This document shows, piece after piece, positions 11,659 through 62,892 of a stretch of DNA of 64,000 nucleotides. The notes beneath the pieces are model-generated. The model saw only the letters and a list, made by a program, of their open reading frames with translations, did not search any database and was not told the origin of the DNA. How positions within the stretch are numbered: the stretch's first letter is position 1; the number at the start of each line of letters is the position of its first letter. The stretch is from positions 62,001 through 126,000 of the forward strand of contig JALGSV010000006.1 of the NCBI GenBank assembly GCA_029821755.1, written 5' to 3'. A program made the translations under genes and the position numbers. This stretch comes from Candidatus Zipacnadum vermilionense. Its GTDB lineage: Bacteria; Armatimonadota; Zipacnadia; Zipacnadales; Zipacnadaceae.

Positions 11659-12816
11659 CTACAAGTTCGCCGTGGTCAGCGCCTCCCGGTACAGGTCCAT
11701 GACCTCCGCCTCGGTCGGCACGCGCGGGTTGCAGGCCACGTCCGGGAAGTCCATGCAGTCCTTAAGCACCGGACCCAGGCCCGACTCGGGGACGTTGAGG
11801 TCGCACAGGCTGATATACATCCCGATCCGCTTCATCCAGGCGATGATCGCCTCCACCGCCTCGCCGCAGTCGGTTACCGAGGCCTCGAAAAGCCGGGCCA
11901 CCTTGGTGAACTTGTCCGCTGCCGCCTCGCAGGTGAAGCGCAGGAAGGGCGGGTAGACGACCGCGAGCGACTGGCCGTGCGCCACATGCGGGAAGTGGCC
12001 GCTAATCGGCTGGCCCATGGCGTGGGGCAGCGTTGTCCCCGCGTTGGAGATGGACATGCCGGCCAGGGTGTCGGCCCAGGCCAGGTTGGTGCGCGCCTCC
12101 AGGTTGGCGCCGTCCGCCACGGCCGTCTCGACGTTCTCGGCCAGCAAACGCAGGGCCTCCAGCGTCATCAGGTCCGTCATCGGCGTGGCCCCGGGGTTGG
12201 TGTAGGACTCGAAGGCGTGGGTGAAGGCGTCGAAGGCAGTGGAAGCGGTGAGCGGCGCGGGCAGGCTCAGCATCAGCTCGGGATCCACGATCGCCGCACG
12301 GGGGAAGACCTGATCGTGGGCGATGGCCGACTTACACTCGATGGCGCTGTTGGTGATGACCGCGTAGCGGGTGGCATGAGCGCCGGTCCCCGAGGTGGTG
12401 GTGACCGCGATGATGGGCAGCGTCAGCGGCGTCGGCTGCTGGGGCTGGAAGTACATGTAGTCCCACACACTGCCGGGATGGGTCGCGGCGACGGCGATGC
12501 CCTTGGCGGTGTCAATGGTACTGCCGCCGCCGATGCCGATGACGCACTCGACGCCCTCGTCCTGGGCGATCCGCGCGCCGCGGTCGATGCTCTCCACGGT
12601 GGGGTTGGGGACGGCCTGGTCGTAGACGACCACCGACAGCCGCGCCGCCTCCAGGCTGGCTTGGGCCCGAGCGAACATCGGCTGCAGCGCCGGCTCCCAG
12701 GGCACGGTGACCAGCATGACGCGCCCGCCGTGCGGGGCGGTGAGTTCTCCGAGCATTTCCAGTTTCCCCGCGCCAAACTCGATGGCGGTGGGGGCGAGAT
12801 GGCGGAAGTTGAGCAT
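11659..12816 (-). CDS. Iron-containing alcohol dehydrogenase
   Basis: 385 residues, the standard length for the family. The NAD-binding motif GIGGGSTIDTAKG is near residue 95. The metal ligands are in FDAFTHAFE (Asp and His), LPHAMGQ (His) and VAHGQS (His). It reduces an aldehyde or oxidises an alcohol (lactaldehyde/1,3-propanediol class) with NAD(P)H in the cytoplasm. The ATG at 12816 has a perfect AGGAGG six bases away. It is the third dehydrogenase in the sugar region, suggesting disposal of reducing power or deoxysugar-derived aldehydes. Confidence 0.9.
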   Translation of the reverse strand: MLNFRHLAPTAIEFGAGKLEMLGELTAPHGGRVMLVTVPWEPALQPMFARAQASLEAARLSVVVYDQAVPNPTVESIDRGARIAQDEGVECVIGIGGGSTIDTAKGIAVAATHPGSVWDYMYFQPQQPTPLTLPIIAVTTTSGTGAHATRYAVITNSAIECKSAIAHDQVFPRAAIVDPELMLSLPAPLTASTAFDAFTHAFESYTNPGATPMTDLMTLEALRLLAENVETAVADGANLEARTNLAWADTLAGMSISNAGTTLPHAMGQPISGHFPHVAHGQSLAVVYPPFLRFTCEAAADKFTKVARLFEASVTDCGEAVEAIIAWMKRIGMYISLCDLNVPESGLGPVLKDCMDFPDVACNPRVPTEAEVMDLYREALTTANL

Positions 12817-24816: not shown

Positions 24817-24845
24817 ACTGTATCCCAACCATCGCCGTTTGTCAA
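24817..24845 (-). promoter_or_regulatory. Sigma-70 promoter of the cold-shock gene
   Basis: On the minus strand TTGACA (24840-24845) is followed after 17 bases by TACAGT (24817-24822). The predicted start lies about 30 bases before the ATG, giving a short leader, unlike the long thermosensing leaders of enteric cspA. Confidence 0.7.
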
Positions 24846-25114
24846 CGAGAGAGGGCGCACTCCTGTTGATACAACGTAAGATGACGTCAGCACGTTGTCA
24901 GTTATGTGACGGGGGATGCCGCGGGGGTGGCCGCGCGGGTAGCGGGGGCGTCGTTGGCGCACGAAATGGGAGCCATCCGGCCCTGCTGCGGCACCACCTG
25001 CCCTTGCCTCACCCCGCCGCCGGGTGTAGAATCATGGCCCAATACTCTGGACGACGCGACCAGGCCCTAGGTCTGGCCCCCGCGACTTCCCATGCTGGCA
25101 GGAGGAATCTCATC
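24846..25114. other. Intergenic region upstream of pdxS
   Basis: This is the rest of the 335-base gap between the divergent cold-shock gene and pdxS. I see no gene, no strong hairpin and no clear promoter on the plus strand. The only supported site is the AGGAGGAAT ribosome-binding sequence just before the pdxS GTG. Confidence 0.5.
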
Positions 25115-26029
25115 GTGTCGGAACAGTCCGTAGATAAATCAACTGTCGATCAATCGACTTGGCGAAACAAGGTGGGCCTCGCCGAGATGCTGCGGGGCGG
25201 GGTGATCATGGACGTTACCACTCCCGAGCAGGCCAAGATCGCCGAGGACGCCGGCGCGGTTTCGGTCATGGCCCTGGAGAGGGTCCCCGCCGACATCCGC
25301 GCCGAGGGCGGCGTGGCCCGCATGGCCGACCTCCCGGTCATCGAGCGCATCATGGAGGTCGTGACCATTCCGGTCATGGCCAAGTGCCGCATCGGCCACT
25401 TCGCCGAGGCGCAGGTGCTGGAGTCCGTCGGCGTGGACTTCATCGACGAGAGCGAAGTCCTTACTCCTGCCGACGAGAAATACCACGTGTGGAAGCACGA
25501 CTTCAAGGTGCCCTTCGTTTGTGGCTGCACTTGCCTGGCCGAGGCCCTGCGGCGCATCGGGGAGGGCGCGGCGATGATCCGCACCAAAGGCGAGGCCGGC
25601 AGCGGCAATATCGTCGAGGCCACCCGCCACATGCGCACCGTCATCTCTGAGATGAACCGGATCAAAGAATTGCGCCAGGAAGAGCTGATGACCACCGCCA
25701 AGGAGATGGGCGCGCCCTTCGACCTGGTGCAGGTTATCCATGACAGCGGTAAGCTCCCCGTCCCCAACTTCTCCGCAGGCGGCATCGCCACCCCGGCCGA
25801 CGCGGCGCTCATGATGCAACTGGGGGCCGAGGCGGTCTTCGTGGGCTCGGGCATCTTCAAGTCCGAAGATCCGGCCGAGCGCGCCGCGGCAGTCGTACAC
25901 GCCATCACCTACTACGAGGACCCGGCCGAAGTCGCCAAGGCCTGCCGCGGCCTGCGCGGCGCGGCCATGGCGGGGATAGACGTGAGCAAGCTGGAGGACC
26001 ACGAGCGCATGGCGACGAGGGGCTGGTAG
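25115..26029 (+). CDS. pdxS: Pyridoxal 5'-phosphate synthase subunit PdxS
   Basis: 304 residues, near the family's 290-300. PdxS condenses ribose 5-phosphate, glyceraldehyde 3-phosphate and ammonia into PLP and works with PdxT. Motifs include [32 protein letters not shown] with the first Schiff-base lysine region, and [10 protein letters not shown] with the second lysine. The start is the GTG at 25115, following GGCAGGAGGAATCTCATC; the open frame upstream is longer but not family-like. pdxT is not adjacent but 6.4 kb downstream at 32478. Confidence 0.97.
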
Positions 26030-29732: not shown

Positions 29733-30947
29733 ATGCGCAGATACGTCGTCCTCATCGCCTCCGTGGTCATTCAGATATGCCTCGGGGGCACTTATGCGTG
29801 GAGCGCTTTTGTCCCGGCGCTCAGCGAGAAGTATGGCCTGAGCAGCGCCCAGACGCAAACCATCTTCGGCGTCACCATCGCGGTGCTGACCCTCTCCATG
29901 GTGCTTTCTGGGAGGTTACAGGATCGCTACGGGCCGCGCCTGGTGGCCATGATCGGCGCTGCTCTGTACGCTTGTGGCTACGTGCTGGCCTCCTTCTCCC
30001 ACGGCGCGTATCCCCTGCTCTTGCTGGAGGTCGGCTTCATCGTCGGCGCCGGCATCGGCTTCGTCTACGTCTGCTCCCTGGCCACCTGCATCAAATGGTT
30101 CCCCGAGCGCAAGGGGCTGATCACCGGCGTAGCGGTGGCGGGCTACGGCGCGGGGGCCATCGTCCTGTCCTACCTGGCAACGGCCCTGTTCGCCCGGGGA
30201 CTAGACGTGCTGGAGATCTTCCGCTGGATTGGCCTCTGCTACGGTGTGGTGGTCTTTCTGGGCGCGCTGCTGCTGAGTGTCCCCGCGACCGCCAGCCCGG
30301 CGCAGGCGCGGGTGAGTGTGGGCTTGGGCGAGGTGCTCGGCCACCGGGCCTTCTGGGGACTGGCAGTCGGGGTGTTCTGCGGCACCTGCGCCGGGGTGAT
30401 TGTGATCGGCAATCTCAAGCCTATGGGCCTCCACGCCGGGGTCGGTCTCGGCGTGGCCACGACCGCGATCAGTGCCCTGGCGGTCGGCAACGCTCTCGGC
30501 CGGATCTCCTGGGGCCTGCTCTACGACCGCTGGGGACAAGCGGTTATCCCGTTGTCGCTGCTCTTCCTGGCGGGAGCCGACCTGGCCTTGCTGGGTGCGC
30601 GGGGCAGCGGAGCTGGGCTCCTGCTGGCCGCCCTCGCGGTGGGCCTAGGTTACGGAGCCTGCGTGGTCCTGTATGCCGCCCGCGTCGCCTCGGTCTGGGG
30701 CCCCGAGCGCGTGGGGAGCGTCTACCCCATGGTTATGCTCTTCCACGGGGCCGCCGCCTTCGTGGCCCCGGCGCTGGGCGGGCGACTGTTCGACGTGACT
30801 GGCGACTTCACTCTGTCGCTGCTGCTGGCCGCCAGCACCGCCCTGGTGGGCGCTGCGGCGGTGTGGATGCTCATGGCGCGCGACGCAGCCCCGCCGACCC
30901 CGGCGGTGACCTCCGAAGCAATGCTGATGGTCGAGCCGCCGGACTGA
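29733..30947 (+). CDS. Major facilitator transporter, OFA (oxalate/formate antiporter) type
   Basis: 404 residues with twelve membrane segments. The family signature is visible at the start (GGTYAWSAFVPALSEKYGLS), together with SGRLQDRYGPR in the loop after segment 2 and KWFPERKGLITGVAVAGYGAGA in the middle. OFA members exchange small carboxylates such as oxalate and formate; the real substrate is unknown. A second, similar transporter follows at 31156, and a two-hairpin repeat element separates them. Confidence 0.85.
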   Translation: MRRYVVLIASVVIQICLGGTYAWSAFVPALSEKYGLSSAQTQTIFGVTIAVLTLSMVLSGRLQDRYGPRLVAMIGAALYACGYVLASFSHGAYPLLLLEVGFIVGAGIGFVYVCSLATCIKWFPERKGLITGVAVAGYGAGAIVLSYLATALFARGLDVLEIFRWIGLCYGVVVFLGALLLSVPATASPAQARVSVGLGEVLGHRAFWGLAVGVFCGTCAGVIVIGNLKPMGLHAGVGLGVATTAISALAVGNALGRISWGLLYDRWGQAVIPLSLLFLAGADLALLGARGSGAGLLLAALAVGLGYGACVVLYAARVASVWGPERVGSVYPMVMLFHGAAAFVAPALGGRLFDVTGDFTLSLLLAASTALVGAAAVWMLMARDAAPPTPAVTSEAMLMVEPPD

Positions 30948-30972
30948 ACGTACGCACGGGAAGCCGCGTCGA

Positions 30973-31118
30973 CTCCCCGTAGGGGCGGATATTGCGGCTT
31001 CCGAGCCGCAATATCCGCCCGCGCCCGTCGAGAACGTCACTATTGCCATGGCTTGTGGCTTCCGTGGGCGGATGTTTCGCGGGATACGGCCCCGCGAAGT
31101 ATCCGCCCCTACGGGGTC
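30973..31118. repeat. Two-hairpin intergenic element, copy 2 (inverted)
   Basis: About 146 bp with inverted ends CCCCGTAGGGGCGG and CCGCCCCTACGGGG. The first hairpin is ATTGCGGCT/AGCCGCAAT. The second is TTCGCGGG with CCCGCGAA around ATACGG. The order is reversed relative to copies at 8052-8216 and 53343-53508, so this copy is in the opposite orientation. Confidence 0.8.
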
Positions 31119-31155
31119 ACCGGAACCGTTCACACACGCCCTGGACGCAGACTTC

Positions 31156-32454
31156 ATGGATCACCATCTCCCCGAGACAATCAGCGTCGCCGATGAACTG
31201 GCCGGTCCGTTGGAGCCGGCCGCACTGACCTGTCCGGTCCCCTCCAGGCGGCGCTGGACGGTACTGGTCGCCTCGGTGGTGATGCAACTAGCGCTCGGCG
31301 GCATCTACGCCTGGAGCACCTTCGCCGTTCCTCTGCGCCAAGGGCACGGCTTAACCAACGCCCAAACCCAGATGATCTTCGGCCTCACCATCGCCCTGCT
31401 AACCACCTCCCAAATCATCTCCGGCCGCCTACAGATACGCCACGGCCCCCGCCGGGTGGCGCTGCTGGGCGCCGTGCTCTACGGCAGCGGCTACGTGATC
31501 GCCGGCTACTCCGGCGGCAGCTTCCCGGTGCTGCTAGTGGGCATCGGTCTCATCGGCGGACTGGGCACCGGCCTGGCCTACCTGTGCCCGGTTACCAGTT
31601 GCCTTTGCTGGTTCCCCGAGCGCAAGGGCCTCATCACCGGCATCGCCGTCGCGGGCTTCGGGGCGGGGGCAATTGTCCTGTCGGTAGTGGCTCGCGTGGC
31701 CTTCAACCACGGCTGGGACGTGCTGCGCTTCTTTTGCTGGATGGGCCCTGTCTGGGGCGCGATAGTCCTGCTCAGCGCTCTGTTCCTGTCGACGCCCGCC
31801 CTCGCGCCCGGCGAGGAGCTGCCGGAGCGGCCCCTGTTCTTGACGCTGCTCCGCAGGCGAGATTTCCAGCGCCTGGTTTTGGGGACGTATTGCATCTCCT
31901 TCGCCGGCCTGACCGTCATCGGCAGCCTGGAGCCAATGGGGCGCGCGGCCAGTCTCGCCCCGGCGATAGCTACCCTCGCCATCAGCCTGCTGGCGGTGGG
32001 GAATTCCGTCGGGCGGATCACCTGGGGCGGGGTATATGATCGCGTGGGGCGCGCCTCCGTGCCTGCGGCCCTGTTCTGCACCGGCCTGGCGGCCCTGGCC
32101 ATGCTCTCGCTGGGCCGGAGCCAACCGGGCTACCTCTTCGCCGCCATCGTCACCGGGCTGACCTACAGCGCGACCACAGTGCTGTTCGCCGCGGAGGTCG
32201 CCACCCTCTGGGGTCCCTCGCTGGTCGGCGTCATCTACCCCTTCCTAAGTGTCTTCACCGGTCTGGCGGCGCTCACCGGCCCCTCGATAACCGGTGCCCT
32301 ATACGACCGCACCGGAAGCTACGCCCCCGCTCTGCTGCTCAGCGCGGCGGTAGCGATAATCGGAGCGGCTCTGATATGGAAGTGGCCGCACCTTGACGAT
32401 ACGCGGCCAACCAACGACAATAGCAGACAGACGGCGCCAGCGACGAGGGAGTAG
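31156..32454 (+). CDS. Second OFA-type major facilitator transporter
   Basis: 432 residues with twelve predicted membrane segments after a 33-residue cytoplasmic extension. It is paralogous to the transporter at 29733: GGIYAWSTFAVPLRQGHG, SGRLQIRHGPRR and CWFPERKGLITGIAVAGFGAGA all line up. The ATG at 31156 is chosen because the open frame further upstream runs through the two-hairpin repeat; no good ribosome site is present. The tandem pair suggests duplication and import or exchange of related carboxylates. Confidence 0.83.
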   Translation: MDHHLPETISVADELAGPLEPAALTCPVPSRRRWTVLVASVVMQLALGGIYAWSTFAVPLRQGHGLTNAQTQMIFGLTIALLTTSQIISGRLQIRHGPRRVALLGAVLYGSGYVIAGYSGGSFPVLLVGIGLIGGLGTGLAYLCPVTSCLCWFPERKGLITGIAVAGFGAGAIVLSVVARVAFNHGWDVLRFFCWMGPVWGAIVLLSALFLSTPALAPGEELPERPLFLTLLRRRDFQRLVLGTYCISFAGLTVIGSLEPMGRAASLAPAIATLAISLLAVGNSVGRITWGGVYDRVGRASVPAALFCTGLAALAMLSLGRSQPGYLFAAIVTGLTYSATTVLFAAEVATLWGPSLVGVIYPFLSVFTGLAALTGPSITGALYDRTGSYAPALLLSAAVAIIGAALIWKWPHLDDTRPTNDNSRQTAPATRE

Positions 32455-32477: not shown

Positions 32478-33053
32478 GTGAAGATCGGGGTATTGAGCTT
32501 ACAGGGCGATTTCGCCGAGCATATAGTGGCTTTGCGGGAGGCGGGAGCGGACGCGGCAGCGGTCAAGAAGCCGGAGGACGTGCTCTCCTGCGCCGGACTA
32601 GTGATTCCCGGCGGAGAGTCCACTACCATCGGCAAGCTGTGCGTGCGCTTTGGCGTGGGGGAGGCTATCCAGGAGCTGGCCCGCCGCGGCGCCCCGATCT
32701 GGGGCACCTGCGCCGGGATGATCCTGCTCGCCAAGGAGATTGAGGAGAGCGACCAGTGGCGTCTGGGCCTGATGGACATTGCCGTGCGCCGCAATGCCTT
32801 CGGGCGGCAGGTGGATAGCTTCGAGGCGGACGTGCCGATGGCCGGTGTCGAGGGCGGCCCGGTGAGGGCAGTATTCATCCGCGCCCCCCACGTCACGCGA
32901 GTCCTCGACGGCGCCGAGGCGCTGGCGACCCTCCATGACAAGATCATCGCCGCCCGCCAGGGCCAGTTCCTGGTCACGGCGTTTCATCCGGAGCTGACGG
33001 ACGACCGGCGGGTGCAGGAGTATTTCATCGGGATGGTGCGGGAGGGGAAGTGA
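32478..33053 (+). CDS. pdxT: Pyridoxal 5'-phosphate synthase glutaminase subunit PdxT
   Basis: 191 residues. PdxT is the class I glutaminase that feeds ammonia to PdxS. The oxyanion/Gln loop is LQGDFAEH, the glycine strip PGGESTTIGKL, the nucleophile Cys in GTCAGM, and the His-Glu pair in FHPELT near the C-terminus. The start is GTG, with GGAGG ten bases upstream. The last 15 codons are duplicated imperfectly 1.28 kb downstream (34291-34334), beyond the nuclease gene. Confidence 0.96.
   Translation: MKIGVLSLQGDFAEHIVALREAGADAAAVKKPEDVLSCAGLVIPGGESTTIGKLCVRFGVGEAIQELARRGAPIWGTCAGMILLAKEIEESDQWRLGLMDIAVRRNAFGRQVDSFEADVPMAGVEGGPVRAVFIRAPHVTRVLDGAEALATLHDKIIAARQGQFLVTAFHPELTDDRRVQEYFIGMVREGK
33010..33053 (+). 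repeat. Direct repeat, left copy (3' end of pdxT)
   Basis: 44 bp forming the last codons and stop of pdxT. They match 34291-34334 at about 40 of 44 positions, beginning GGGTGCAGGAGTATTTCATC in both. Together they flank a single gene of restriction-nuclease type. Confidence 0.85.
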
Positions 33054-33148
33054 GGTAGGGCGGGGGCTACGTCCCCCGCCGCTCCCCAGCTCCATCCCAG
33101 CCATAGTACTGCGACCACCAGCATCGGTCTCAGAAAGGGTGAGCATCC

Positions 33149-34276
33149 ATGCAAGGCGACTTAGACGAACTGCGGCGCTTCGTGGAAAAGGTGAAGGGTT
33201 TGGTGGCGCAAAGGGCTGACTTTGTCGAGGCACAGACCAGAATCGCTCTCGTGGATCCGCTGCTCAGGTGGCTGGGGTGGGACGTATCTGACCCCTCCCA
33301 GGTGCAGGTGGAATGGAAGCGAAAGGGCCAGAAAGAGGGTGTTGACTACGCCCTGTTCGAGGGGGACGATCTCCTGCTCCTAGTCGAAGCGAAGCAGCTC
33401 ACTGACCCTCTCAAAGATAGAGGTTTGTGGCAGCTAATCAAGTACGTTCCGATAAGCGAGTCAGAAAAGGCCCGGTGGGGCATCCTCACGAGTGGCCGCG
33501 TGATAGTATTGGTGAACGCCGACCAGAAGGGCACCCTGGAGAGCAAAATCTTCTGGAGACTCGATCTGGCGCAGGTCGACGCCCCTGGCGGGCCGTCGCT
33601 TCAAGAGGCAGCAGACAATCTCCGCCTCCTCAGAAAGGAAGCACTCTCCAGTGGAGAGACCGACAAGGCTTGGGATGAGGAGCAGGTGCAAAGCAAAGCA
33701 AGGGCCGCCGTCGAGGCCCTTTTAGGCGCCCCCTCGGAGGAGCTGGTGGAACTGGTCCGCAACCAGGCCGGCGCATCGGACCTGCCGAAGGACGTTGTCG
33801 CCGTTCATCTGGCGGCGCTAGTGGGAAAAGAGCCCAATGCCACGGCCACTGCAACGCCGGCAGGAGGCGGGGTTACCCATAGACGAAAGCTCGAGGTATA
33901 TGATCGACCCTTCTACGAGGAGTCGCACGATGCAAAAGCCGTTGATCAGTTCCTCGCCGTGGCTGACGCGATAGAGAAGCTCGCGTCCGCCAAGAGGTGG
34001 GCTGTTAAGAAGAAACCCAATATGTACTACGTAGGGTTCAAGTACGGGAGTAGGATATGCTTTCTGGTACATTGGATCAGTAGAGTGAGTTGGGACCTGG
34101 GCTTCAGAGTCCCCGAGGGTGCAGTCGAGGAGATGGGGGCAGAGCACTGGAGCGTTCATAGCTACGATAGCAAATCGAGTTGGGCGGTAATTCGCTGTGC
34201 GGAGCCGGAAACGGCCAATATAGAGGAACTCGAAGCGCTATTCGAGGCTGCCTACCGCTTCATCGCTGGGGCGTAA
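33149..34276 (+). CDS. Type I restriction HsdR-N-like PD-(D/E)XK nuclease protein
   Basis: 375 residues. The N-terminal half resembles the HsdR_N/PF13588-type nuclease domain. EAQTRIALVDPLLRWLGWDV precedes the catalytic set Glu28, Asp66 (GVDYALF) and Glu80-Ala-Lys82 (LVEAKQ). The C-terminal half (250-375) has no recognised helicase; it looks like a compact alpha/beta domain (MYYVGFKYGSRICFLVHW). Without a translocase it is not a full type I R subunit. It may be a stand-alone defence nuclease. Its DNA is visibly less GC-rich than pdxT and the transferase gene beside it. It is flanked by a 44-bp duplication of the pdxT end, indicating insertion. Confidence 0.7.
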   Translation: MQGDLDELRRFVEKVKGLVAQRADFVEAQTRIALVDPLLRWLGWDVSDPSQVQVEWKRKGQKEGVDYALFEGDDLLLLVEAKQLTDPLKDRGLWQLIKYVPISESEKARWGILTSGRVIVLVNADQKGTLESKIFWRLDLAQVDAPGGPSLQEAADNLRLLRKEALSSGETDKAWDEEQVQSKARAAVEALLGAPSEELVELVRNQAGASDLPKDVVAVHLAALVGKEPNATATATPAGGGVTHRRKLEVYDRPFYEESHDAKAVDQFLAVADAIEKLASAKRWAVKKKPNMYYVGFKYGSRICFLVHWISRVSWDLGFRVPEGAVEEMGAEHWSVHSYDSKSSWAVIRCAEPETANIEELEALFEAAYRFIAGA

Positions 34277-34290
34277 CGCATAGGCCCGAT

Positions 34291-34334
34291 GGGTGCAGGA
34301 GTATTTCATCCGGATGGTGCGGGAGAGAGAGTGA
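34291..34334 (+). repeat. Direct repeat, right copy (pdxT 3'-end remnant)
   Basis: A diverged copy of 33010-33053. In the pdxT frame it still reads VQEYFIRMVRERE then TGA, so it looks like the end of a pdxT allele now separated from its gene. It lies 14 bases after the nuclease gene and 56 bases before the nucleotidyltransferase gene. Confidence 0.85.
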
Positions 34335-34390: not shown

Positions 34391-35146
34391 GTGAAGGGCA
34401 TCATCCTCGTCGGTGGCCTGGGGACTCGGCTCTACCCGATGACGCGGGTGACCAACAAGCACCTGCTGCCGGTGGACCGCTTTCCCATGGTCTACTACCC
34501 CGTGCACAACTTGGTCGAGGCCGGGGTGCGTGATATCATGCTGGTGACCGGCGGCAACCAGGTCGGCGCCTTCCTGGAGTTGCTGCGGGACGGGCGCGAG
34601 TTCGGCCTGGAGCATCTGTACTTCGCCTACCAGCACGCGCCGCGGGGCATCGCCGACGCCCTGCGCTGCGCCGAGCGCTTCGCGGACCGCGAGCGCTGCA
34701 TCGTCATGCTGGGCGACAACATCCTGGCCGGTAGCATCAAGCCCTTCGTGGACAAATTCCGCGCCCAGCCCGCCGGCGCTCGGGTGCTGGCCAAGGAGGT
34801 CCCCGACCCCCACCGCTTCGGCGTCCCCCGCTTCGACGACCAAGGCCACATCACCGAAATCATCGAAAAACCGGCTGATCCGCCCTCCAATCTGGCCATC
34901 ATCGGCGTCTATATGTACGACGAGACGCTGTGGGACATCCTGCCCGCGCTGGAGCTGTCGGCGCGGGGCCAGTACGAGATCACCGACGTAAACAACGCCT
35001 ACTTGGCAAAGCACCAATTGGAGTGTGACACCATTCCCTTCGCCTGGTCCGATGCCGGCACCCCCGAGAGCCTCCACCGCGCCGCAGAAATGATGCGCGC
35101 CAGTGACTTCCTACCGGCGGTGGCAGAGGGAGTATGGGAGGCGTAG
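34391..35146 (+). CDS. Glucose-1-phosphate thymidylyltransferase-like nucleotidyltransferase
   Basis: 251 residues, shorter than canonical RmlA (about 290). The nucleotide-binding signature GGLGTRLYPMT is at the start, followed by KHLLPVDRFPMVYYPV, the catalytic Asp region MLGDNI, and FGVPRFDD with IIEKPADPPSN. It makes a dTDP- (or other NDP-) sugar from sugar 1-phosphate. The start is GTG 34391, after GGAGGTAAACGT. Missing C-terminal helices suggest loss of the allosteric part seen in RmlA. Confidence 0.85.
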   Translation: MKGIILVGGLGTRLYPMTRVTNKHLLPVDRFPMVYYPVHNLVEAGVRDIMLVTGGNQVGAFLELLRDGREFGLEHLYFAYQHAPRGIADALRCAERFADRERCIVMLGDNILAGSIKPFVDKFRAQPAGARVLAKEVPDPHRFGVPRFDDQGHITEIIEKPADPPSNLAIIGVYMYDETLWDILPALELSARGQYEITDVNNAYLAKHQLECDTIPFAWSDAGTPESLHRAAEMMRASDFLPAVAEGVWEA

Positions 35147-61005: not shown

Positions 61006-62892
61006 TTGGACCTGACCCAGAAACCCAGCGAGCATCCTTCCGTAGTCGAAGCCTACGAGACCGTGCACGAGGCGGACCTGAGCAACACCGTGGACCGCAT
61101 GGTGGCGCAGGGCGTACGCTGCCAGTTCTGCGAGGGCGGCATCCGCTGCTCCATCTGTTCCCAAGGCCCCTGCCGCATCCTCCCCCGCGCCCCGCGCGGC
61201 GTCTGCGGCATCGACGCCGACGCCCTGGCCATGCGCAACCTGATCCACCTGAACATCATGGGCATCGCGGCCTATAGCCACCACACCCGCGAGGTCGCCC
61301 GCACCCTCAAGGCCACCGCTCAGGGCAAGACTCCCTTCTCCCTCAAGGAGCCCGAGAAGCTGGCCTCCGTCTGCGCCATGCTGGGCGTGGAGGGCAGTAC
61401 CGTAGAGGAGCAGGCTATTGGCCTGGCTGACAAGATGGTGGAGGAGCTGAACCGGGACTACTACGACGAGTCGCTCATGGTCGAGGCCCTGGCCCCCGAG
61501 GGCCGCAAGGCGCTCTGGCGCAAGCTAGACATTTTCCCCGGCGGGCCGCTGGCCGAGATCCAGGCAGCCACCACCCGGGCTATGACCAACATCGATGGCG
61601 ACTTCGTCTCCCTAGCTCTGACCGGCCTGCGCTTGGGCGTCTCCAGCGCCTACGGAGCGCTAGCTCCGCTGGAGCTGGCCCAGGACATTCTCTTCGGTAC
61701 CCCGCGGCCGCATGCCGCCAAGGTCGACCTGGGCATCCTCGACCCGGACTACGTCAACGTCATGCCCAACGGCCACATGCCCTTCGTCGGTTTCGCCCTG
61801 GTGCAGGTTGCCCACAAGCCGGCGAACCAGGAGAAGGCCCGGGCCGCCGGGGCTAAGGGGCTGCACATCGTCGGCTCCATCGAGACCGGCCAGGAGATGC
61901 TCCAGCGCCTGCCCGTAGATGACGTCTTCGTCGGTCTCACCGGCAACTGGATTACCCTGGAGTACGCCCTCGGCACCGGCGCGGTGGACCTGCTGGCCGC
62001 CGACATGAACTGCACTCCGCCGCACATCAAGGAGGTCGCCGATCAGTTCGGCACCGTCGTCAAGGCCGTCTCGGAGGTGATCGGTGTGCCCGGCGTGGAG
62101 CACATGAACTACCGGCCGGAGACCGCGGAGGAGTTGGCCCAGGCCCTCGTCGACCTAGCCATCGAGAACTTCCCCAAGCGCAAGGTCATGCCGCACCATC
62201 CGGTGGAGCGCACCCAGGAGATCCTGACCGGCTTCTCCAACGAGGCGCTCATCGAGGCCCTGGGCGGCACGCTCGACCCGCTGCTGGAGGCCATCAAGAG
62301 CGGCGCTGTCCGCGGCATCGCCGCGCTGGTGAGCTGCACCACGCTCAAGAACGGTCCCCACGATTCCATGACGGTCAACGTGGCGCGGGAGTTGATTAAG
62401 CGCAACATTCTGGTACTCTCCGCCGGCTGTGGCAACGCGGCGACCCAGGTGGCGGGGCTCAATTCGCTCTCCGCGCAGAAGTTGGCCGGCCCCAAGCTGC
62501 GCCCGGTCCTGGAGATGCTCGGCATCCCACCGGTGCTCAGCTTCGGCACTTGCACCGACTGCGGGCGGCTGGCTCTGCTGGTCGGGGCAGTAGCGGACGC
62601 CCTGGGCGTGGATACCGACAAGCTGCCGATAGTGGTGACGGCCCCAGAGTACATGGAGCAGAAGGCGACCATCGACGCGCTCTCCGCACTGGCGCTGGGT
62701 CTGTATACCCACATCAGCCCGGCGCCCTTCATCAGCGGGGCGCCGGCCTTGGGCAAGCTGCTCACGGAGGACCTGGAGGGCATCACCGGCGCCAAGGTCG
62801 CCCTGGGCGAGGACCCGGCCGAGGTAGCGGAGGCGATGGCCCAGCACATCGACGACAAGCGGACCGGCCTGGGGCTGTCCTGCGAGGTGTAG
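61006..62892 (+). CDS. CooS-like Ni-Fe-S protein (anaerobic CO dehydrogenase family), altered C-cluster ligands
   Basis: 628 residues, full CooS length. B-cluster cysteines 48, 51, 56 and 67 are present. The D-cluster region is Cys39-x2-Cys42 (CQFC), not the Cys39/Cys47 pair; residue 47 is Arg. A Cys-x2-Cys D-cluster with [2Fe-2S] is known from Desulfovibrio vulgaris CODH. C-cluster ligands His257 (NGHMPF), Cys336 (DMNCTP), Cys444 (VSCTTL), Cys475 (AGCGN) and Cys516 (FGTCTDC) are kept. The motif matching CooS G-I-C-C-T-G-N-E reads GSIETGQE, so the Cys295-equivalent is Glu293. Lys553 is kept. The start is TTG, ten bases after AAGGAG. No cooC or acs genes are near. CO oxidation is therefore uncertain. 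Confidence 0.88.
   Translation: MDLTQKPSEHPSVVEAYETVHEADLSNTVDRMVAQGVRCQFCEGGIRCSICSQGPCRILPRAPRGVCGIDADALAMRNLIHLNIMGIAAYSHHTREVARTLKATAQGKTPFSLKEPEKLASVCAMLGVEGSTVEEQAIGLADKMVEELNRDYYDESLMVEALAPEGRKALWRKLDIFPGGPLAEIQAATTRAMTNIDGDFVSLALTGLRLGVSSAYGALAPLELAQDILFGTPRPHAAKVDLGILDPDYVNVMPNGHMPFVGFALVQVAHKPANQEKARAAGAKGLHIVGSIETGQEMLQRLPVDDVFVGLTGNWITLEYALGTGAVDLLAADMNCTPPHIKEVADQFGTVVKAVSEVIGVPGVEHMNYRPETAEELAQALVDLAIENFPKRKVMPHHPVERTQEILTGFSNEALIEALGGTLDPLLEAIKSGAVRGIAALVSCTTLKNGPHDSMTVNVARELIKRNILVLSAGCGNAATQVAGLNSLSAQKLAGPKLRPVLEMLGIPPVLSFGTCTDCGRLALLVGAVADALGVDTDKLPIVVTAPEYMEQKATIDALSALALGLYTHISPAPFISGAPALGKLLTEDLEGITGAKVALGEDPAEVAEAMAQHIDDKRTGLGLSCEV

Follow-up and report, generated by a model that had tools for sequence, protein, structure and literature searches.

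Modification-dependent, or type IV, restriction has the reader classes McrB-N, SRA, RAMA, EVE and winged helix. As far as the excerpts go from which all papers are cited below, GmrSD is modification-dependent and targets DNA with glucosylated hydroxymethylcytosine, and DUF4268, DUF4357 and DNA_binding_1 are listed as its extra domains (PMC4619093). RAMA was proposed as a reader of adenine methylation, without confirmation that it prefers methylated DNA (PMC11037411). The C-terminal domain (CTD) of T4 MotA binds a box sequence and leaves room in the major groove for glucosyl-hydroxymethyl groups (PMC6755090); a title in the reference list of that paper states that the MotA CTD specifically recognises modified DNA. 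MmcQ/YjbR is a MotA-like double wing, and fusions of a nuclease with YjbR and EVE were reported (PMC7641849). Insertion with a long, variable target duplication has been associated with restriction genes (PMC3031569, PMC1643837), and a lone HsdR_N protein of unclear role is described in a phage-resistant Campylobacter strain (PMC8713573). In the limited literature collection searched, PMC7641849 was the only paper found on the double wing together with modification-dependent restriction, and its excerpt does not name DUF5655. The two papers matched for lone HsdR in the same collection dealt with type I restriction, one with an enzyme and the other with a system, and no paper on DUF5655 or PDC-S18 was found there.

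The gene described here lies in a stretch of 64,000 nucleotides from Candidatus Zipacnadum vermilionense (the window). It encodes a protein that very probably joins a nuclease to a tail of a DNA-reading type. Table 1 lists the features of the locus.

Table 1. Features of the nuclease locus (window coordinates)
Feature	Position	Strand	Details or basis
pdxT (SNO glutamine amidotransferase), left neighbour	32478..33053	+	Pfam, conserved pairing
Upstream direct repeat	33005..33053	+	last 49 nt of pdxT
GC-rich hairpin-like sequence just past pdxT, within the apparent inserted unit	33059..33080	+	read from sequence
Stand-alone nuclease gene	33149..34276	+	375 aa, ATG start
HSDR_N-type PD-(D/E)XK nuclease core and helical segment, residues 1-205	33149..33763	+	Pfam, invariance, predicted fold
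DUF5655-related, predicted double-wing (MotA-CTD/YjbR-like) domain, residues 248-375	33890..34273	+	PDC-S18 tail, hhalign, fold
Downstream direct repeat	34286..34334	+	43/49 identical to pdxT end, period 1281 bp
rfbA-like nucleotidyltransferase, right neighbour	34391..35146	+	Pfam, conserved pairing

The nuclease gene and its locus

The open reading frame of the nuclease was confirmed as real, with an intact frame. HSDR_N was the sole Pfam family in the 375-aa protein; its score of 26.3 bits (E 8e-6) exceeded the curated cut-off of 25.1. The catalytic set comprised E27, D66 and E80-A-K82, followed by Q95-xxx-Y99 (QxxxY), and the segment LVDPLLRWLGWDV occupied residues 34-46. We aligned 26 sequences, drawn from 29 loci matching the N-terminal domain (the window's own included) that were taken among the matches listed. 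Besides the 375-aa protein itself, the alignment held one sequence of a viral contig and 24 that came from genomes within the phylum; L003, L006, L014 and L017 (partial frames or an internal stop) were left out and L120 was added. E27, D66, E80 and K82 were invariant in all 26 sequences, and Q95 was kept in at least 90% of them. Pfam detected HSDR_N in 25/26 and HSDR_N_2 in 21/26 at E<=0.01. As the catalytic residues were invariant and HSDR_N was detected in all but one sequence, it is very unlikely that the resemblance to HSDR_N arose by chance. An earlier reading of the sequence alone (the sequence-only reading) had proposed an HsdR-N-like nuclease from the Asp66/Glu80-x-Lys82 set and the segment at residues 34-46. 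These results bear the proposal out, and the loss of catalytic residues in homologues that would speak against it did not occur in the aligned sequences.

Matches to the nuclease family or to the tail were found in 55 of the 291 phylum genomes, its own included (G092 and G129 through the tail only), so the nuclease family is common. Two relatives of the HSDR_N chassis, L006 and L017, had a stop codon within the matched frame, so some copies of the family may decay. Among solved structures, the type I R subunit 3h1t was a weak match of the chassis profile (E 0.023).

The C-terminal helicase/translocase of type I enzymes is absent, since the protein stops at 375 aa and HSDR_N is the only Pfam family in it. 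Partner genes were searched in the whole assembly of the organism (95% complete, 115 contigs), in which the window belongs to contig C69. Methylase_S had no match at E<=0.001 in a profile search of this assembly. N6_Mtase had three matches, with frames of 1092-1267 aa on contigs C85, C38 and C29, and ResIII had nine; no match of either family was located on C69. Partners of the hsdM and hsdS kind were thus not found nearby. The sequence-only reading had held that no helicase follows the nuclease domain and that no methylase or specificity gene is near, and both statements agree with these searches. N6_Mtase was the methylase family searched, and its three proteins elsewhere in the assembly make a methylase acting in trans possible. 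When 50 window ORFs (the nuclease included) were compared with PADLOC at E<=1e-10, three families were matched by one ORF each, namely PDC-S18 (the 375-aa nuclease), LmuA (9.6e-13) and PDC-M48B (5.8e-11).

The GC content of the nuclease gene was 0.582 (z -4.5; GC3 z -3.2), against 0.672 (s.d. 0.020) in a crudely called set of 39 further window ORFs with at least 190 aa. Its two neighbours are housekeeping genes that form a conserved pair in the order. A pdxT match, weak in some cases, was present in 36 of 41 genomes of the order, and 30 loci among the matches listed were examined, several of those left out being weak. rfbA was located next to pdxT in 28 of the 29 other loci, 27 of them with rfbA at most 198 bp from the end of the pdxT alignment; the exceptions were L119, at 509 bp, and L117, where no rfbA was in reach. 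Genome G289 of the same genus has the order MFS-pdxT-rfbA with 103 bp from pdxT to rfbA and without the nuclease. G290, also of the same genus, does not have the pair; rfbA there follows a CBS-domain-like ORF (by eye), and a weak pdxT match was found elsewhere only.

A direct repeat of the pdxT end flanks the insert at a site that is empty in a relative. In a flanking-repeat test of 55 window ORFs, the pair around the nuclease gene scored 32 and the next best pair 15. Compared with the pdxT ends of 29 relatives, the upstream copy was the nearer of the two in 22 (5 ties, 2 reversed), as expected if it is functional and the duplicate drifts. The two copies are 88% identical, so the insertion would be old or diverged. 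Within the unit of about 1.28 kb no recombinase was recognised. Together these sequence features suggest that the gene is of foreign origin and was inserted singly, within this unit, between pdxT and rfbA; site-specific integration at the 3' end of pdxT would leave an identical pattern of repeats. At 24 relative loci (L010 having almost no upstream flank) the best repeat scores were 8-14 against 32 here. Such repeats were thus seen at the window locus only, and the idea that the family habitually duplicates its target was rejected.

Other genes of the window were read in passing. Positions 24839-26029 read as pdxS by eye, more than 6 kb from pdxT, and a pdxS match directly precedes pdxT in several relatives of the order. 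At 29733-32454 lie two adjacent genes for MFS transporters, both of which align to one place in G289. A gene of the Prismane/CO dehydrogenase family (61006-62892; Pfam 5e-141) is located downstream of a ferredoxin-like ORF (by eye).

The C-terminal domain and its relatives

Residues 248-374 matched the tail of PDC-S18 (5e-26), which PADLOC lists as a candidate for phage defence. The match was confined to profile positions 181-306 of 307 and did not include the NucS-like nuclease part. A second protein with a related tail is encoded in the same genome (L002, 353 aa). It matches PDC-S18 over the full length (1-307) and has a NucS-like nuclease (NucS_C 0.0034, below cut-off) ahead of a tail about 30% identical to that of the 375-aa protein. 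The own-genome NucS-like nuclease with this tail and a full PDC-S18 match was also noted at L050:7230-8291 (G000:C12), with two similar hydrolase-like genes (by eye) near it at L050:8340-9254 and 11724-12635.

DUF5655 (PF18899) was undetected by Pfam in the 375-aa protein at E<=10, and the DUF5655 profile had no match in its genome. L005 (genome G006), which has the HSDR_N chassis and the same tail, showed strong PDC-S18 matches in its tail (4.8e-23) and a weak DUF5655 match (0.0009, below cut-off). When five tails were compared with 18 DUF5655 domains by hhalign, they were matched with a probability of 96.3% (E 1.9e-9). The tail profile gave nine matches in 8 of the 291 phylum genomes. HSDR_N precedes the tail in two of the nine, the 375-aa protein and L005, and a NucS-like nuclease does so in the other seven: L002, L019, L020 and L044 by weak NucS_C matches, and L043, L045 and L046 as read by eye. 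DUF5655 proper was present in 65 of the 291 genomes, in at least three architectures: DUF4287-DUF5655 of about 190 aa (L062), NucS-like-DUF5655 of about 300 aa (L044) and GmrSD-DUF5655 (L088). Many of the best DUF5655 matches in the phylum fell in frames of about 190-210 aa. L062, the one scanned, has no nuclease, so DUF5655 is not a nuclease-only domain. L088, from genome G246, is a GmrSD-type restriction enzyme that carries DUF5655 at its C-terminus. The tail occurs, then, on three nuclease chassis, HSDR_N (L005), NucS-like (L002, L044) and GmrSD (L088).

The HSDR_N chassis in turn carries different tails. RAMA was found behind it in 2 of the 26 aligned sequences, L120 (3.4e-15) and L010. 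Clustering by phmmer at E 1e-3 of the 23 C-terminal parts with at least 50 aa gave six groups, one of 14, one of 5 and four singletons; the 375-aa protein and L005 were separate singletons that phmmer did not join. The most similar nuclease among the matches listed, L004 of the same bacterial family, was 40% identical over residues 3-224, and no similarity was detected between its tail and that of the 375-aa protein. Such differing tails on similar nucleases, in L004 and across the six groups, indicate that the HSDR_N chassis is modular. The tail of L004 appeared PUA/EVE-like by eye, and EVE was rejected: the EVE profile (E<=10) matched another contig of genome G284 instead, and no significant PDB match was obtained with phmmer (best E 0.93).

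A sequence search of solved structures with the tail of the 375-aa protein gave nothing meaningful, some of the matches being to a short helix only. No relatives of the tail were found in viruses or plasmids by peptide patterns, nor by tblastn on plasmids; distant DUF5655 nucleases were found in viral contigs by a search with another query. MAFFT, run in four modes, misregistered the tail against these viral DUF5655 tails each time, as judged by eye.

An AlphaFold2 model was made from two sequences, the 375-aa protein and one viral relative, with a mean pLDDT of 53.6 and tail blocks of 45-59. In this low-confidence model, VIA-align placed residues 262-371 closest to the T4 MotA CTD (1kaf; Z 10.3, 2.5 A over 100 residues), and the MotA-DNA complex 5jlt gave Z 10.0. 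Type III secretion chaperones (Z at most 8.9), YjbR (6.8) and the McrB DNA-binding domain (6.2-6.5) ranked below, values of Z 7-8 in such comparisons being possibly due to a common arrangement. Foldseek matched the same tail model to 1kaf weakly, with E 0.017 at best. Modelled residues 4-167 resembled the nuclease domains of the type IIG enzymes DrdV (Z 10.8), BpuSI (9.2) and BsaXI (8.4) and of EcoR124I HsdR (7.6).

An independent model was made for a viral NucS-like-DUF5655 protein, L172, from five sequences (tail blocks pLDDT 60-92). Its tail aligned with YdhG/DUF1801 (Z 9.4-9.7), YjbR (8.4), MotA (7.3) and frataxins (about 7). The nuclease part of the L172 model matched EndoMS and a repair endonuclease from archaea (Z 11.5-11.6). 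Both models fall in one fold group, YdhG/YjbR/MotA/frataxin. The helix, antiparallel sheet and helix of a double wing are predicted in the tail, and the DUF5655 model is in the same fold group. On the models, the tail of the 375-aa protein probably adopts a double-wing fold. The fold group spans DNA binders (MotA, YjbR) as well as frataxin and secretion chaperones, so the fold alone does not decide the function.

In the sequence-only reading the last 125 or so residues were an unknown domain that could be a sensor. They do form a separate domain. It is no longer without relatives, as the profile and structure comparisons suggested there led to the PDC-S18 tail, to DUF5655 and to a predicted MotA-type fold; on the same comparisons the domain is plausibly a sensor or a reader.

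Genomic contexts and possible function

Neighbouring genes were compared with PADLOC in 22 of 23 context regions (L151 was without a strong anchor), with at most three crude ORFs per side and ORFs above 1200 aa excluded. Controls were drawn from 20 further stretches of these genomes, mostly contig starts, of which 18 yielded ORFs. At E<=1e-15, 2 of 119 neighbours and 2 of 116 control ORFs were matched, and the expected enrichment in defence islands was thus not borne out.

Relatives of the chassis were found in phages. In Corynebacterium phage Juicebox the gene adjoins the immunity repressor on the same strand, seven genes before the integrase, and in Terrisporobacter phage TPELB_ph1 it has a transcriptional regulator on one side and the integrase on the other, all three sharing a strand. 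A position between repressor or regulator and integrase in these two integrase-bearing phages is as expected of a gene expressed in the lysogen. In a Porphyromonas phage a chassis relative follows HicA-like and HicB-like genes. Among 20 matching plasmid records, five annotated contexts were read; they held mainly ordinary, unrelated genes, with RES-family genes near the chassis relative in two of the five; an E. coli plasmid record was unannotated around it. Housekeeping surroundings, which had been named as evidence against a defence role, are thus found in part, whereas at the window locus the gene is not a conserved housekeeping gene but a foreign-looking insertion into a conserved pair. 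Two viral contigs carried NucS-like-DUF5655 nucleases. On L172:5-4921 the gene lies downstream of hsdM, hsdS and a further ORF, all on one strand with overlapping ends, and on L175:2030-6766 it lies beside two D12-class adenine methylases. A serine-recombinase-like ORF was seen by eye near the latter.

We tentatively read the gene, from its sequence and its relatives, as a single gene gained by horizontal transfer that encodes a type IV-like (modification-dependent) restriction enzyme with an HSDR_N chassis, and give this reading slightly less than an even chance. The C-terminal domain, with its predicted MotA-CTD/YjbR double-wing fold, would straddle the major groove of DNA and recognise there either a modified motif or a base modification of the phage type. 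Docked or dimerised at such a site, the protein would cut the invader DNA with its metal-dependent nuclease. Unmodified host DNA would be spared, so that no partner methylase would be needed. A wider proposal is possible, if doubtful: DUF5655 and the domains related to it would form a reader of modified DNA not recognised before, with the double-wing architecture that MotA applies to T4's own glucosyl-hydroxymethylcytosine DNA. Joined to at least three kinds of nuclease (HSDR_N, NucS-like, GmrSD), it would serve bacteria to destroy phages with such DNA, and the HSDR_N version could spread on its own through insertions that duplicate the target.

The sensor idea of the sequence-only reading leads to another kind of defence nuclease, whose C-terminal domain would sense a phage protein or small ligand and unleash non-specific cleavage, as in abortive infection. 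The same fold binds proteins in type III secretion chaperones, with Z up to 8.9 here, and NucC and Cdn1, two defence effectors, have nuclease domains that aligned with the model at Z 5.7-5.9. However, the tail is common to GmrSD and NucS-like nucleases and is swapped with RAMA, a proposed DNA reader, and PADLOC recognised no signalling partner among the 50 window ORFs (LmuA and PDC-M48B were matched); we consider ligand sensing unlikely. Less likely again is a sequence-specific, type II-like orphan restriction nuclease, in which the double wing would read a motif and the host would lack the sites or have a distant methylase. The box binding by the MotA CTD (PMC6755090), the type IIG enzymes DrdV and BpuSI as nearest solved nuclease domains, and the sister nucleases beside hsdM/hsdS (L172) and D12 methylases (L175) are consistent with it. 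Three N6_Mtase proteins are indeed encoded elsewhere in the assembly, but none on C69, and an unprotected single-gene insertion would presumably be toxic.

Use in DNA repair or on particular DNA structures, in the manner of NucS/EndoMS, instead of in defence would account for sister proteins with the same tail on a NucS-like chassis, for the likeness of the L172 model to EndoMS (Z 11.5) and for the several family members among ordinary metabolic genes. It is improbable, given the patchy distribution (the tail profile in 8/291 phylum genomes), the foreign composition and apparent insertion of the gene, and the chassis relatives borne by phages. The gene might finally be an inert remnant or a selfish passenger without present function, as the stops in L006 and L017 and the isolated locus could suggest; with the frame intact and all catalytic residues present here, this is very improbable.

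Should the type IV-like reading hold, a reader class would be added to type IV restriction, and compact single-chain enzymes for detecting modified bases could follow. A domain of unknown function has in this way given rise to a reader hypothesis common to HSDR_N, NucS-like and GmrSD-type nucleases. The locus is also a clear case of a lone restriction-type gene that apparently entered together with a target repeat and is not part of any detected defence island; island-based discovery would miss such a gene.

Comparison with known systems

The 375-aa protein is not a type I enzyme, and it falls outside PDC-S18 and DUF5655 by those families' own definitions. With HsdR (PF04313, HSDR_N) it shares an N-terminal nuclease with D...E-x-K and QxxxY and a predicted fold like that of EcoR124I HsdR (Z 7.6), but a helicase motor is missing, Methylase_S had no match in the assembly and N6_Mtase none on the contig, and the C-terminal domain is its own. 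PDC-S18 has the same C-terminal domain (5e-26) behind a NucS-like nuclease, and only its last 126 or so positions match the 375-aa protein. The likeness to DUF5655 (PF18899) consists in the profile-profile match, with a link through L005; the domain is below Pfam detection in the 375-aa protein, and Pfam assigns DUF5655 no function.

GmrSD, according to the excerpt available, restricts modified phage DNA and has a ParB/Srx and HNH chassis (PMC4619093), unlike the PD-(D/E)XK nuclease here; L088, with its C-terminal DUF5655, is the point of likeness. The double wings of the T4 MotA CTD and E. coli YjbR resemble the tail in predicted fold (Z 10.3 and 6.8), but MotA is a transcription factor, with 9% identity over the aligned residues. 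Insertions with a long target duplication have in common with this locus a restriction-type gene, a flanking repeat of the target end and an empty site in relatives. The locus differs from them in that a lone nuclease gene is present, with no methylase, and in the divergence of the two repeat copies.
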